Of a DNA stretch of 64,000 nucleotides, positions 4,659-30,350 are shown one piece after another. The notes under the pieces are model-generated. The model made no database searches and had not been told where the DNA came from. It saw only the letters and a list, made by a program, of their open reading frames with translations. The translations under genes were made by a program, and so were the position numbers. The stretch lies in the NCBI GenBank assembly GCA_021789995.1, contig JAJYIQ010000002.1, positions 62,001 to 126,000 on the forward strand. The letters are read 5' to 3'. The stretch comes from a bacterium (GTDB lineage: Bacteria; Patescibacteriota; Microgenomatia; UBA1406; GWC2-37-13). How positions within the stretch are numbered: position 1 is the first letter of the stretch; each line of letters starts with the position of its first letter.

Positions 4659-5756
4659 CTAATTCGGGAATCTCTTTCTCGCGTCGTCAATGTTTAAATC
4701 AAACCATCCTTTTAAACCAGCATATTCCGCTTCTTTTGGGTTGACATGTTGGTTTAGCCAAACCATCTTGGTTTTATAGCTTTGCTCCTCAACTTTTAAT
4801 GGTGTGGCTTTTGATCCCAAAGAACTCGTCGCTCTTGTATTATCTATTTCACCTAACAGTCTTCCTATCGCTTCAATTCTCATATCCATACCGTGATTAA
4901 ATGCTGCAGGAGTAATATCTATCGCCACGATAGCTCCATTAACAGAATGATTTGGTACCAACAATACCCCTTCCGTATAACTTCCCCAATCTGGATGCGC
5001 AGTACCAGTTATGATAGTCTTTACTTTCAGGGCCGCCATCGAATAAATACTGCCGGCGGCAGCGCTTTTGATGTAATCCGGGTCATGCTTATTGATCCAA
5101 TCAGCCGCTTGGACAAAATATTGCGGTACATCCGGCCGAAGCGCCCGTGGGCCTTTGGCGACGCAAAACATTGCCGGATTACCTTGGGCATCGGGTAAAG
5201 TGACGATCCAGCCGGATTTTTCCAACTGCTGGTAATAATCGGGAGCGTTTTTGTCAATTTGATTATCCGGGTCAATCCCCAATACCGGCGCAAATCTGAC
5301 GACAACAGTGTTAAATTCCTGTCTGGCTTGAGCGGCAGCATCCGGTGTTGCCGCTGCTTCTTTAGTAGCCGCCGCTGTCGGGTTAACCGTTTCCGTGACA
5401 GTTGCTGACGGAACGGCAAAGGGTGTTCCCGAGAGAGGTAATGGAGTGCCAACCGTCGGAGTAATAACCGGGACAGTGGTGGTAATCGTTTCCGTTGCTT
5501 TTGATGGGGGGAGAGGAGATACTTCCACGGTTATGGTAGGAGAGGCAGGAATAATTGATGGGGCATGAGCCGGAGTCATCGGGATAATGGCGGTTGCCGT
5601 ATCGGTCGCTATCGGGGTTACCCCTTCCGGTGGTTTGGCCATTGCCGGATTATTACTGCAGGCGGATAAAACACCGATAGTTAACGGGGTTAAGGCAAGA
5701 GCAGCCTTAGACAGGGGGATTCCTTTTTGTCTTTCCGGATTAATACCTGTAGGCAT
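4659..5756 (-). CDS. putative lipoprotein, unknown C-terminal domain
   Basis: The N-terminus has a basic/hydrophobic signal ending in a lipobox-like LSAC at about residues 30-33, fitting lipid attachment by the Lgt encoded at 13756. A Pro/Thr/Val-rich linker spans roughly residues 38-135 and would span the wall. A globular domain of about 220 residues follows (FAPVLGIDPDNQ, GLKGWFDLNIDDARKRF) that I cannot assign. TATAAT (5765-5770 on the complement) is 8 nt from ATG 5756. The gene is divergent from pepA. Confidence 0.7.
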   Translation of the reverse strand: MPTGINPERQKGIPLSKAALALTPLTIGVLSACSNNPAMAKPPEGVTPIATDTATAIIPMTPAHAPSIIPASPTITVEVSPLPPSKATETITTTVPVITPTVGTPLPLSGTPFAVPSATVTETVNPTAAATKEAAATPDAAAQARQEFNTVVVRFAPVLGIDPDNQIDKNAPDYYQQLEKSGWIVTLPDAQGNPAMFCVAKGPRALRPDVPQYFVQAADWINKHDPDYIKSAAAGSIYSMAALKVKTIITGTAHPDWGSYTEGVLLVPNHSVNGAIVAIDITPAAFNHGMDMRIEAIGRLLGEIDNTRATSSLGSKATPLKVEEQSYKTKMVWLNQHVNPKEAEYAGLKGWFDLNIDDARKRFPN

Positions 5757-28263: not shown

Positions 28264-28635
28264 ATGTTTTATCGTTGGATTGTGATTGAAAATTCGCTGA
28301 AAGATAAAAGCATTTTAAATAAATATAAAGTTTTATCGGAAACAAAGTTTGCGGCCGGTACGCCGCGGGAATCGCGGATGCTGAAAATCCAGGTTCCCGA
28401 AAAAGAAATCGATCGATTGACCAATCGATTAATCGATTGGATTATTTATCCTTATTACACCCATTTTTACCATGAAGATCCGAAAAATAATACTTTAATT
28501 GTTGTTTTTTCCGGAAAGAAAATAGTAACGAAGAAAAATAATTATCAGGATGCCATTAGTTACGGAGTAATTCACGGTGTCAGTCGGAAAGAAATGGATA
28601 TCTATCCCCGGGATATGTCTCAAGAAGAATGGTAG
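28264..28635 (+). CDS. hypothetical protein (123 aa)
   Basis: Small soluble protein with an alternating beta/alpha pattern: FYRWIVIENSLKDKSIL, a middle segment (LTNRLIDWIIYPYYTHFYHEDPKNNTLIVVFSGK) and a C-terminal helix. I cannot assign a family. TATAAT at 28252-28257 lies 6 nt before ATG 28264, which supports expression. It shares a promoter region with the ZIP transporter, so joint regulation is possible. Confidence 0.65.
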   Translation: MFYRWIVIENSLKDKSILNKYKVLSETKFAAGTPRESRMLKIQVPEKEIDRLTNRLIDWIIYPYYTHFYHEDPKNNTLIVVFSGKKIVTKKNNYQDAISYGVIHGVSRKEMDIYPRDMSQEEW

Positions 28636-28716: not shown

Positions 28717-28989
28717 ATGGCAGAAAAACTGAAAGGTTTGGAGATTAAAGAATTGCTTTCGGGAGTGTGTATTCATGCCGAACAGCATTCTCCGAATGGA
28801 AAAAAATCCGGTCCGCTATGTTCGTCTATACATGCAGTTACCATATCAAAAACTCCTGAAGGAATAGTCGCCGTATGTGAAGGTTTATGCAATACCGGAT
28901 TCACGCGAATCAGTCAGAAAAAAGGTCGGCGAATTGCTAGAGGCCCGGTTTATTGTCCGATCAAACCGAATCGTTTATTTTCTCCATAA
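28717..28989 (+). CDS. hypothetical small Cys/His protein (90 aa)
   Basis: Not recognised. Cys at residues 18, 35, 54, 58 and 80 and His at 20, 24 and 39 could bind a metal, but no standard finger spacing is evident. The C-terminus is basic (SQKKGRRIARGPVYCPIK). TATAAT (28703-28708) lies 8 nt before ATG 28717, the usual geometry here. It lies directly before the riboswitch-controlled gene. Confidence 0.55.
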   Translation: MAEKLKGLEIKELLSGVCIHAEQHSPNGKKSGPLCSSIHAVTISKTPEGIVAVCEGLCNTGFTRISQKKGRRIARGPVYCPIKPNRLFSP

Positions 28990-29059: not shown

Positions 29060-29088
29060 TTGCATTCGTCCCAAAAAAGTACTATTCT
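29060..29088 (+). promoter_or_regulatory. promoter of the riboswitch transcript
   Basis: TTGCAT (29060-29065), 17 nt, TATTCT (29083-29088). The expected start near 29095 leaves a leader of about 150 nt that holds the riboswitch. Confidence 0.55.
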
Positions 29089-29110
29089 TTTTACGCTTTT
29101 TAAAATTTGT

Positions 29111-29243
29111 ACTTGGGTAACGGGAACGCCGTGCGAGTCGGCGCCTGTGCCGCAACGGTAAGTTCCGCCTTCTCCCGATAAAATCGGGATTCGGCGGACA
29201 AGGCCGGAACCGTCCAAGTCGACAACCCCGCGCAGGGAATTTT
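29111..29243 (+). ncRNA. adenosylcobalamin riboswitch with translational platform
   Basis: Outer stem ACTTGG (29111-29116) pairs with CCAAGT (29214-29219), and adjacent ACGG with CCGT. Between them are the B12-box core elements: AACGGGAACGCCGTGCGAGT, then CCTGTGCCGCAACGGTAAG, and a 3' GGCCGGAACCGTCC. Loop CCTGTG (29144-29149) can form six pairs, one G-U, with CGCAGG (29231-29236) in the downstream hairpin. That hairpin overlaps AGGGA (29234-29238), a Shine-Dalgarno 5 nt before ATG 29244. The classical reading is that bound cobalamin favours the kissing loop and hides the ribosome site. Confidence 0.85.
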
Positions 29244-30350
29244 ATGCCGATACAGGAAACCCGTGCTGCCTATCGCACACAACCAAACGAAGCCTTTCCC
29301 CAAAATTATGAACGAAAAATCAATCCCCTCGCCCTCCGCGATGACGTGGAATCGTATTTGAAGGAATACCGCCTGCAAACGCAAATCAATAAATACGAAT
29401 TGAACTACTCTTTTGGAAAAGGAGAGAATCGCCATTTGCGCGATACTTATGACGGGGAAACAATGATCGAAAAAGGAAAAAAAGCGATTGAAAGAAGGAT
29501 CAGGGAAGGAAAAAGCGTCATACGGGAGGAAGCGGAACTGGAAGGACTGCAGTTATTGGAAGACCAGCTCCAGTCGGCCAGGCCGGGAGATGTGCTTGTC
29601 TGGGCTAGTCCGCCCGGATCGAAAAACGAGGGTTACGGCGATTATGGTTTTTTCTATACGGGCACATTATCTCCCGGTAAACAAGCCGGCGACGTCCGTA
29701 TGGATATGGAAGCAATCCGCGTCGACCGGCCGACGATTGATCAGTTTAATAAATCAATCCAGGCTATCGGCGGATACGATTTTCATTTTGACAAGGCGGA
29801 AGATTTTTTATCCCACCCGCTGATACTGCCGGAATTAAAAGGAGAAATATTGCCGGTACTGCATGATATTTTTGGCTTTTCACCTGATCCGTCGAAAATG
29901 GAAAGGGATCAGAGAATACTAAAAATCATGCAATCAAAAATTCAGAATTTCATCCAGGCGGTCAAAGCCGGCATGCCGAAAATCGAATTGCTGCAGCAAT
30001 TCCATATTTTGGAAAACTTGACGGACGATTTGAAAGTGAATATCGACAAGATCGATTTGACGCAGTGGTTAACCATGTCTCCGGAACAAATGATAGTCCG
30101 ATATAACTACCAGCCGGCATTCGTCGGCGGCAGCTGCGGTGGCAGTGCGCGGGGAAATTCCGATACGCCTTGGGATCACGGCAACGATCTCTTTAATTCA
30201 TTCTCGGCACTGAAAGAATTATTTGAGGACAGATATCCGGATTATCAGTGCAACAGTTGTGGTATCACGATCCATGGTGAATTAAAGAACGACCGGAGTT
30301 CCTGGACGCCAAAATGCCCGAATTGCGGCCAGGTATTTAATAAATGTTAG
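29244..30350 (+). CDS. unknown zinc-ribbon protein under cobalamin riboswitch control
   Basis: A 368-aa protein of unknown function. There is no signal peptide. The N-terminal half is charged and helical; a conserved-looking block follows near residue 115 (RPGDVLVWASPPG, EGYGDYGFFYTG). Near residue 320 is a Gly/Ser/Cys motif (VGGSCGGSARGNSD), and the C-terminus is a zinc ribbon (CNSC ... CPNC). It has a rare leader and Shine-Dalgarno, regulated by the B12 element just upstream. It matches no known B12 enzyme, transporter or isozyme that I recognise. The stop overlaps the end of a broken minus-strand gene. Confidence 0.75.
   Translation: MPIQETRAAYRTQPNEAFPQNYERKINPLALRDDVESYLKEYRLQTQINKYELNYSFGKGENRHLRDTYDGETMIEKGKKAIERRIREGKSVIREEAELEGLQLLEDQLQSARPGDVLVWASPPGSKNEGYGDYGFFYTGTLSPGKQAGDVRMDMEAIRVDRPTIDQFNKSIQAIGGYDFHFDKAEDFLSHPLILPELKGEILPVLHDIFGFSPDPSKMERDQRILKIMQSKIQNFIQAVKAGMPKIELLQQFHILENLTDDLKVNIDKIDLTQWLTMSPEQMIVRYNYQPAFVGGSCGGSARGNSDTPWDHGNDLFNSFSALKELFEDRYPDYQCNSCGITIHGELKNDRSSWTPKCPNCGQVFNKC

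Follow-up and report, generated by a model that had tools for sequence, protein, structure and literature searches.

Results

The locus and its cobalamin riboswitch

The window, i.e., the whole 64,000-nt stretch of DNA that was analysed, carries on its forward strand a gene for a 368-aa protein of an unnamed family (29244..30350) and, directly in front of it, a cobalamin riboswitch aptamer (29097..29232). Two small genes on the same strand (28264-28635 and 28717-28989) lie just 5′ of the riboswitch and have no Pfam or NCBIfam match. Scanning with the Rfam covariance models (cmscan) gave a full-length RF00174 match on the forward strand with a score of 34.6 bits against a gathering cut-off of 31.5 (E = 4.3e-5), and this element was the single RF00174 match in the whole 898-kb genome (4 contigs); the related model RF01482 was not the winning one. 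A cobalamin riboswitch with a closed outer stem and a complete B12-box core had been proposed in the sequence-only reading, and both structures can be seen in the sequence and align with RF00174. The promoter that was placed about 150 nt upstream in the same reading was not recovered, as a sigma-70 scan of the forward strand between 28900 and 30700 found no sigma-70-like promoter.

The aptamer core read from the sequence is CUGUGCCGCAACGGUAA. It is enclosed by the outer stem P1 (UUGU-ACUUGG / CCAAGU-CG-ACAA), in which the ACUUGG/CCAAGU helix is lengthened by UUGU/ACAA, with the 5′ arm at 29107..29116 (+) and its partner at 29214-29219 and 29222-29225. Within the element, a core hairpin, CGCCG-UGCGAGU-CGGCG (29127..29143, +), is followed by the L5 kissing-loop strand CCUGUGC (29144..29150, +), by the B12-box core GCCGCAACGGUAA (29149..29161, +), aligned with the RF00174 consensus, and by a peripheral two-stem hairpin (29164..29198, +). 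The L5 strand pairs with GCGCAGG (29230-29236) over 7 bp, one of which is G-U.

The corresponding aptamer of a sister species (L131, 86% protein identity) also scores above the RF00174 cut-off, at 33.4 bits, and differs from the window element by three double compensatory changes among 27 named pairs, two of them in the core hairpin and one in the peripheral hairpin, where one C-G to U-G change is also found. In the sister species a deletion has taken away two pairs that close the loop of the peripheral hairpin, and no other pair is lost. Both the L5-L13 pairing, whose L5 strand is identical, and the P13 hairpin described below are unchanged, so that the complementarity expected of homologs is kept. 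Plain minimum-free-energy folding of the window element was unexceptional (z = -1.1), and for this reason the case is built on the covariance model and the comparative evidence, which together confirm that 29097-29232 is a genuine cobalamin riboswitch.

Expression platform

The expression platform is the P13 hairpin CCC-CGCGCA-GGG (29226..29237, +), which includes the L13 strand (29230-29236) and whose 3′ arm, GGG, is the Shine-Dalgarno sequence 6-7 nt ahead of the ATG at 29244; the kissing loop beside the ribosome binding site of this gene, as described from the sequence, was thus found in place. Among 64 riboswitch loci with a recognisable core that were sampled for their platforms, a hairpin with a GCA-type loop was found shortly upstream of the start codon in 53, against a frequency of 0.20 in shuffled leaders, and most relatives have the hairpin together with a CGnGCA loop. 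The three stem pairs of P13 covary between C-G and T-A over 53 aligned relatives: the first is C-G in 47 and T-A in 4, the second C-G in 49 and T-A in 3, and the third C-G in 24 and T-A in 26, with at most three G-U or mismatch cells per pair, these counts being raw and inflated by the relatedness of the sequences. The fourth position showed no pairing across the same 53 relatives.

This layout has the anatomy of a putative translational OFF switch, for which we infer direction and ligand from the known riboswitch family. Upon binding of cobalamin, most likely AdoCbl, L5 would kiss L13 and the CCC-GGG hairpin would be stabilised, hiding the Shine-Dalgarno sequence; when AdoCbl is low, the kissing loop and P13 would open, leaving the ribosome binding site free and allowing translation of the gene at 29244.

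The controlled protein

The 368-aa product had been described as a zinc-ribbon protein of no recognised family, and this description holds: searches of Pfam, NCBIfam, PHROGs, PADLOC and PDB returned only weak zinc-ribbon matches, and the ribbon is C-terminal (C336, C339, C358, C361 and C368; 30249..30347, +; sequence and profile comparison). There was no reductase match (barrel or NRDD domain) in Pfam or NCBIfam, and Pfam found neither a membrane S component nor a transcobalamin-like domain, nor PF01923 or PF02572 of the PduO/BtuR adenosyltransferases, which are encoded by separate neighbouring genes. A recognised catalytic or corrinoid-binding motif is likewise absent from the protein, and no relatives were found on viral contigs.

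Close homologues, with 29-37% identity, occur in Levy- and Roizmanbacteria. Iterated HMM searches, seeded on genes that had mostly been found via the riboswitch, gathered 53 sequences; because of this seeding, both sequence and riboswitch speak for the family. The resulting family HMM had matches at E <= 0.001 in 92 of the 144 relatives, a few of them confined to the zinc ribbon. Residues E41, S122, P123, C298, C336, C339, C358 and C361 are invariant or nearly so, and C368 is present in most members.

AlphaFold2 modelling gave a mean pLDDT of 76 for the whole protein and of 88 for residues 24-215 folded alone. It predicts an N-terminal alpha/beta domain (residues 27-176; 29322..29771, +) with conserved E41, R94, S122-P123 and Y134, for which the structural matches were mostly PAS/LOV entries, the best of them (VIA Z 4.9, Foldseek E 0.15) being below significance. 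Foldseek and PDB sequence searches gave nothing significant beyond the zinc ribbon. The resemblance of the fold to PAS is therefore weak at best, and a zinc ribbon lies at the C-terminus. An NrdJ-like redox tail was also considered and rejected: the C-terminal profile matches NrdJ tails, NrdR and other zinc ribbons equally, and for this reason no such redox tail is claimed.

Pairing of switch and gene in the class Microgenomatia

RF00174 elements were found in 176 of 373 genomes of the class, usually one per genome, and at 59 of the 76 riboswitch loci examined a family member lies directly downstream or within the riboswitch operon. Viewed from the side of the protein, the orthologues keep the riboswitch: wherever upstream sequence is available for a close homologue, an RF00174 or RF01689 element precedes either the gene itself or the adjacent upstream pduO (L133, L140), some of these elements being slightly below the cut-off and one homologue (L139) having almost no upstream sequence. 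In Microgenomatia, the riboswitch mostly controls a single unnamed protein family, which is linked to class II ribonucleotide reductase. No paper that deals with cobalamin riboswitches in Patescibacteria, CPR or Saccharibacteria, and no description of this switch-family pairing, was found in the open-access PMC literature.

Other riboswitch targets include a metE-like gene (L051) and DUF4430-DUF6580 uptake genes (L080, L087). The element before the metE-like gene, judged as such by its N-terminal sequence, has the highest score in the class by a wide margin, 98.7 bits (G056:C12), and the same genome also has a family gene under its own riboswitch. At nine loci (L084, L088, L102, L105, L106, L112, L113, L118 and L121) the riboswitch slot is filled by unrelated long proteins of 546-828 aa, several of which end alike in "..IIF.." and precede the small gene and a TraD-like ATPase; hhalign comparison with the family was negative for L084, L088, L102, L105 and L106 and borderline for L113. 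Two further loci (L060, L076) have proteins of 100-108 aa right after the riboswitch, with little beyond a zinc ribbon, which are perhaps shrunken family members. PrgI was rejected as a riboswitch target, as the loci in question were not strand-oriented and the PrgI gene is divergent. AdoCbl-II riboswitches precede the adenosyltransferase gene at L138:4103-4182, L133:4124-4203 and L140:4071-4142; at L138, a second, weaker AdoCbl-II element (4785-4881) lies in tandem ahead of the family gene.

Linkage to the NrdJ/PduO module

The recurrent gene order in relatives is nrdR, nrdJ, pduO (or btuR), the riboswitch, the family gene and a small gene, beyond which there is either a TraD-like coupling ATPase or, adjacent and oppositely oriented, trxA. 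NrdJ and PduO are within 3 kb of each other in 63 of 66 cases. The family gene is no more than 1.5 kb from PduO in 31 of the 68 genomes that have both, and in 30 of these 31 it is downstream on the same strand. In eight genomes it stands immediately behind DUF6580, and at one locus (L111) a single riboswitch is followed by DUF4430, DUF6580 and the family gene; vertebrate transcobalamins have DUF4430 as their C-terminal domain (PMC4350170). Among good-quality genomes, a family member was found in 62 of 91 with NrdJ, leaving 29 in which none was detected, and in 2 of 10 without NrdJ, both being weak partial matches (Fisher p = 0.004, a value inflated by the relatedness of the genomes).

The statement that B12 genes are missing was correct for the window and not for the genome: the B12-dependent ribonucleotide reductase NrdJ (C2:69423-71150) and the cobalamin adenosyltransferase PduO (C2:71767-72249) are encoded on another contig, which is why the window has none. 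At this locus (L159), nrdR-nrdJ-pduO and the small gene are kept and the family gene is missing from the slot between, while in the window the family gene and its riboswitch stand alone, away from the nrdJ module. A VOC-family-like gene on the minus strand (L159:10336-10740, G000:C2) lies between pduO and the small gene instead. Neither the class III reductase NrdD nor a DUF6580 match was found in the source genome, which encodes one B12-binding-domain protein elsewhere (C3:155615).

Comparable riboswitch targets beyond the class

A search of 362 genomes of the phylum with the family profile gave weak matches outside the class. Of 12 such loci fetched, two encode plausible long relatives (L175, L181), and only these two have a cobalamin-clan riboswitch directly upstream, each a little below the cut-off; the ten others, judged from their sequences (ProS, DnaJ, GlyRS-like and radical-SAM-like proteins among them), are zinc-ribbon coincidences without a riboswitch. 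The L181 protein comes from a second class, in which 30 of 295 genomes have relatives of it, and a cobalamin-clan match lies upstream of 15 of the 16 homologues scanned there, several of these matches being below the cut-offs. The second-class leaders (upstream regions of L188-L206) have a terminator-like hairpin and a T-run in place of the Shine-Dalgarno hairpin, so the platform before this comparable zinc-ribbon protein is probably transcriptional; the next gene is nadD-like. Comparison of the second-class proteins with the window family by hhalign gave 96.6% over 39 zinc-ribbon columns only and was negative for the N-domain, although the motif order looks similar. Since homology is significant over the zinc ribbon alone, parallel use is claimed here rather than proven common descent.

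Discussion

Proposed role of the riboswitch-controlled family

The sequence-only reading suggested a new cobalamin-linked function in salvage, sensing or replacement. Because the genome has NrdJ and PduO and, in relatives, the gene usually stands right behind nrdJ-pduO, this range can be narrowed to the salvage of B12 or its sparing use on behalf of the reductase that depends on it. The protein probably helps these minimal cells to deal with a shortage of B12. Directly observed are the aptamer and its platform, their covariation, the conservation of the switch-gene pair and the genomic linkage, and on this basis we consider it somewhat better than an even bet that the translational OFF switch makes a protein for times of AdoCbl scarcity that serves an NrdJ/B12-salvage module, with ligand, direction and role of the protein supplied by analogy and context. 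The protein would then be a member of a divergent Patescibacteria family attached to the AdoCbl-dependent ribonucleotide reductase module, comprising nrdR, nrdJ and the cobalamin adenosyltransferase gene, joined by predicted uptake genes in some genomes. The preferred role is that of a cytosolic B12-salvage or handling factor in a cell that would depend on outside B12; that it restores the AdoCbl supply to NrdJ, or spares AdoCbl, is suggested by genomic linkage and seems slightly more plausible than its opposite. Counting against this role are the 29 good-quality NrdJ genomes in which no member was detected, the lineages in which an unrelated long protein takes the slot, the absence of a recognised catalytic or corrinoid-binding motif, and one family (f5) in which the gene adjoins type IV secretion genes and not nrdJ.

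This last arrangement, with PrgI/VirB4-like and pilin-like genes (named from sequence) flanking the family gene, is among the points in favour of the strongest competing explanation, in which the protein would be an effector or adaptor linked to type IV secretion and B12 scarcity would turn on a host-directed system supplying corrinoids or nucleotides to the episymbiont. A TrwB/TraD-like coupling ATPase follows the family gene and the small gene in one run at L117, L137, L138, L140, L141 and L142, a signal peptide is not evident in the protein sequence, and there is a precedent in Cutibacterium acnes, where adhesin-like genes have cobalamin riboswitches upstream (PMC9600381). However, TraD is within the downstream run at only 12 of 85 loci, the next gene in the second class is nadD-like, and type IV secretion genes are common in the class, so that their proximity may be inherited gene order. 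We regard this explanation as unlikely, though it deserves to be kept in mind.

Alternatively, the protein could act directly on NrdJ as a brake or partner, for instance one that slows the reductase down or re-activates it under AdoCbl scarcity. The tight linkage to nrdR-nrdJ, the near absence of the family where NrdJ is missing, the predicted PAS-like, sensor-type topology and a C-terminal cysteine pattern (CxxCG..C) resembling the NrdJ tail would all fit such a role; NrdJ tails, however, do not outscore other zinc ribbons with the C-terminal profile, the PAS similarity is under significance, and this explanation appears less probable still. A B12-independent replacement for NrdJ, as in the metE and class I nrd isozyme regulons, would follow the classical logic of cobalamin riboswitches, to which the riboswitch before the metE-like gene of L051 conforms, but is very improbable, because no library searched gave a ribonucleotide reductase domain, the proteins are of 300-480 aa with a predicted fold unlike the reductase barrel, and the source genome lacks NrdD. 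The score of just 3 bits over the cut-off and the unexceptional folding energy might suggest a riboswitch that arose by chance or has decayed and no longer regulates anything, but this is scarcely credible in view of the compensatory changes, the intact kissing loop and P13, and the conservation across genera and in the second class.

A wider proposal, which we put forward tentatively and consider on the whole doubtful, is that a new riboswitch-controlled zinc-ribbon family, present in two or more classes of Patescibacteria, may be host-directed or reductase-directed, so that B12 scarcity sensed by RNA would trigger exploitation of the host or a checkpoint on DNA precursors in near-minimal episymbionts.

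Significance and comparison with known systems

Patescibacteria have tiny genomes with few recognised regulators and mostly unknown proteins. Against this background, a conserved RNA switch whose principal target across much of one class is an unnamed protein provides this protein with a testable physiological trigger, AdoCbl scarcity, and with class II ribonucleotide reductase and its adenosyltransferase as partner module, and points to B12 supply as a checkpoint of DNA synthesis in these organisms. Moreover, a native AdoCbl-responsive element might serve where there are few inducible tools to choose from.

With PAS-domain sensors, the N-terminal domain shares the predicted strand-strand-helix-helix-three-strand order, and most of its structural matches are PAS/LOV; it differs in that Z values do not exceed 4.9, there is no sequence match, and, apart from the zinc ribbon, an output domain is absent. 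With B12 uptake operons, in which DUF4430 is transcobalamin-like and DUF6580 is an ECF-type S component, the family gene shares the riboswitch operon of L111 and the position directly behind them in the eight genomes mentioned above, whereas the family protein is neither a membrane nor a binding-domain protein and occurs in genomes without a DUF6580 match, the source genome included. Cobalamin riboswitches also control isozymes, namely metE and class I/III nrd. The link to ribonucleotide reduction and, presumably, the on state at low AdoCbl are common to that mode of control and to the present one, but here the only reductase found is AdoCbl-dependent, and what the switch controls is a protein of another kind. 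Finally, with the RF00174 class itself (clan CL00101, which also includes RF01689, AdoCbl-II, and RF01482, AdoCbl), the window element shares the core, P1, the kissing loop and a translational platform that sequesters the Shine-Dalgarno sequence, and it differs from this class in its small peripheral domain and in its target, which is an unnamed protein family in place of the usual transport, synthesis or known isozyme genes; the unusual feature is thus the regulon and not the riboswitch itself.
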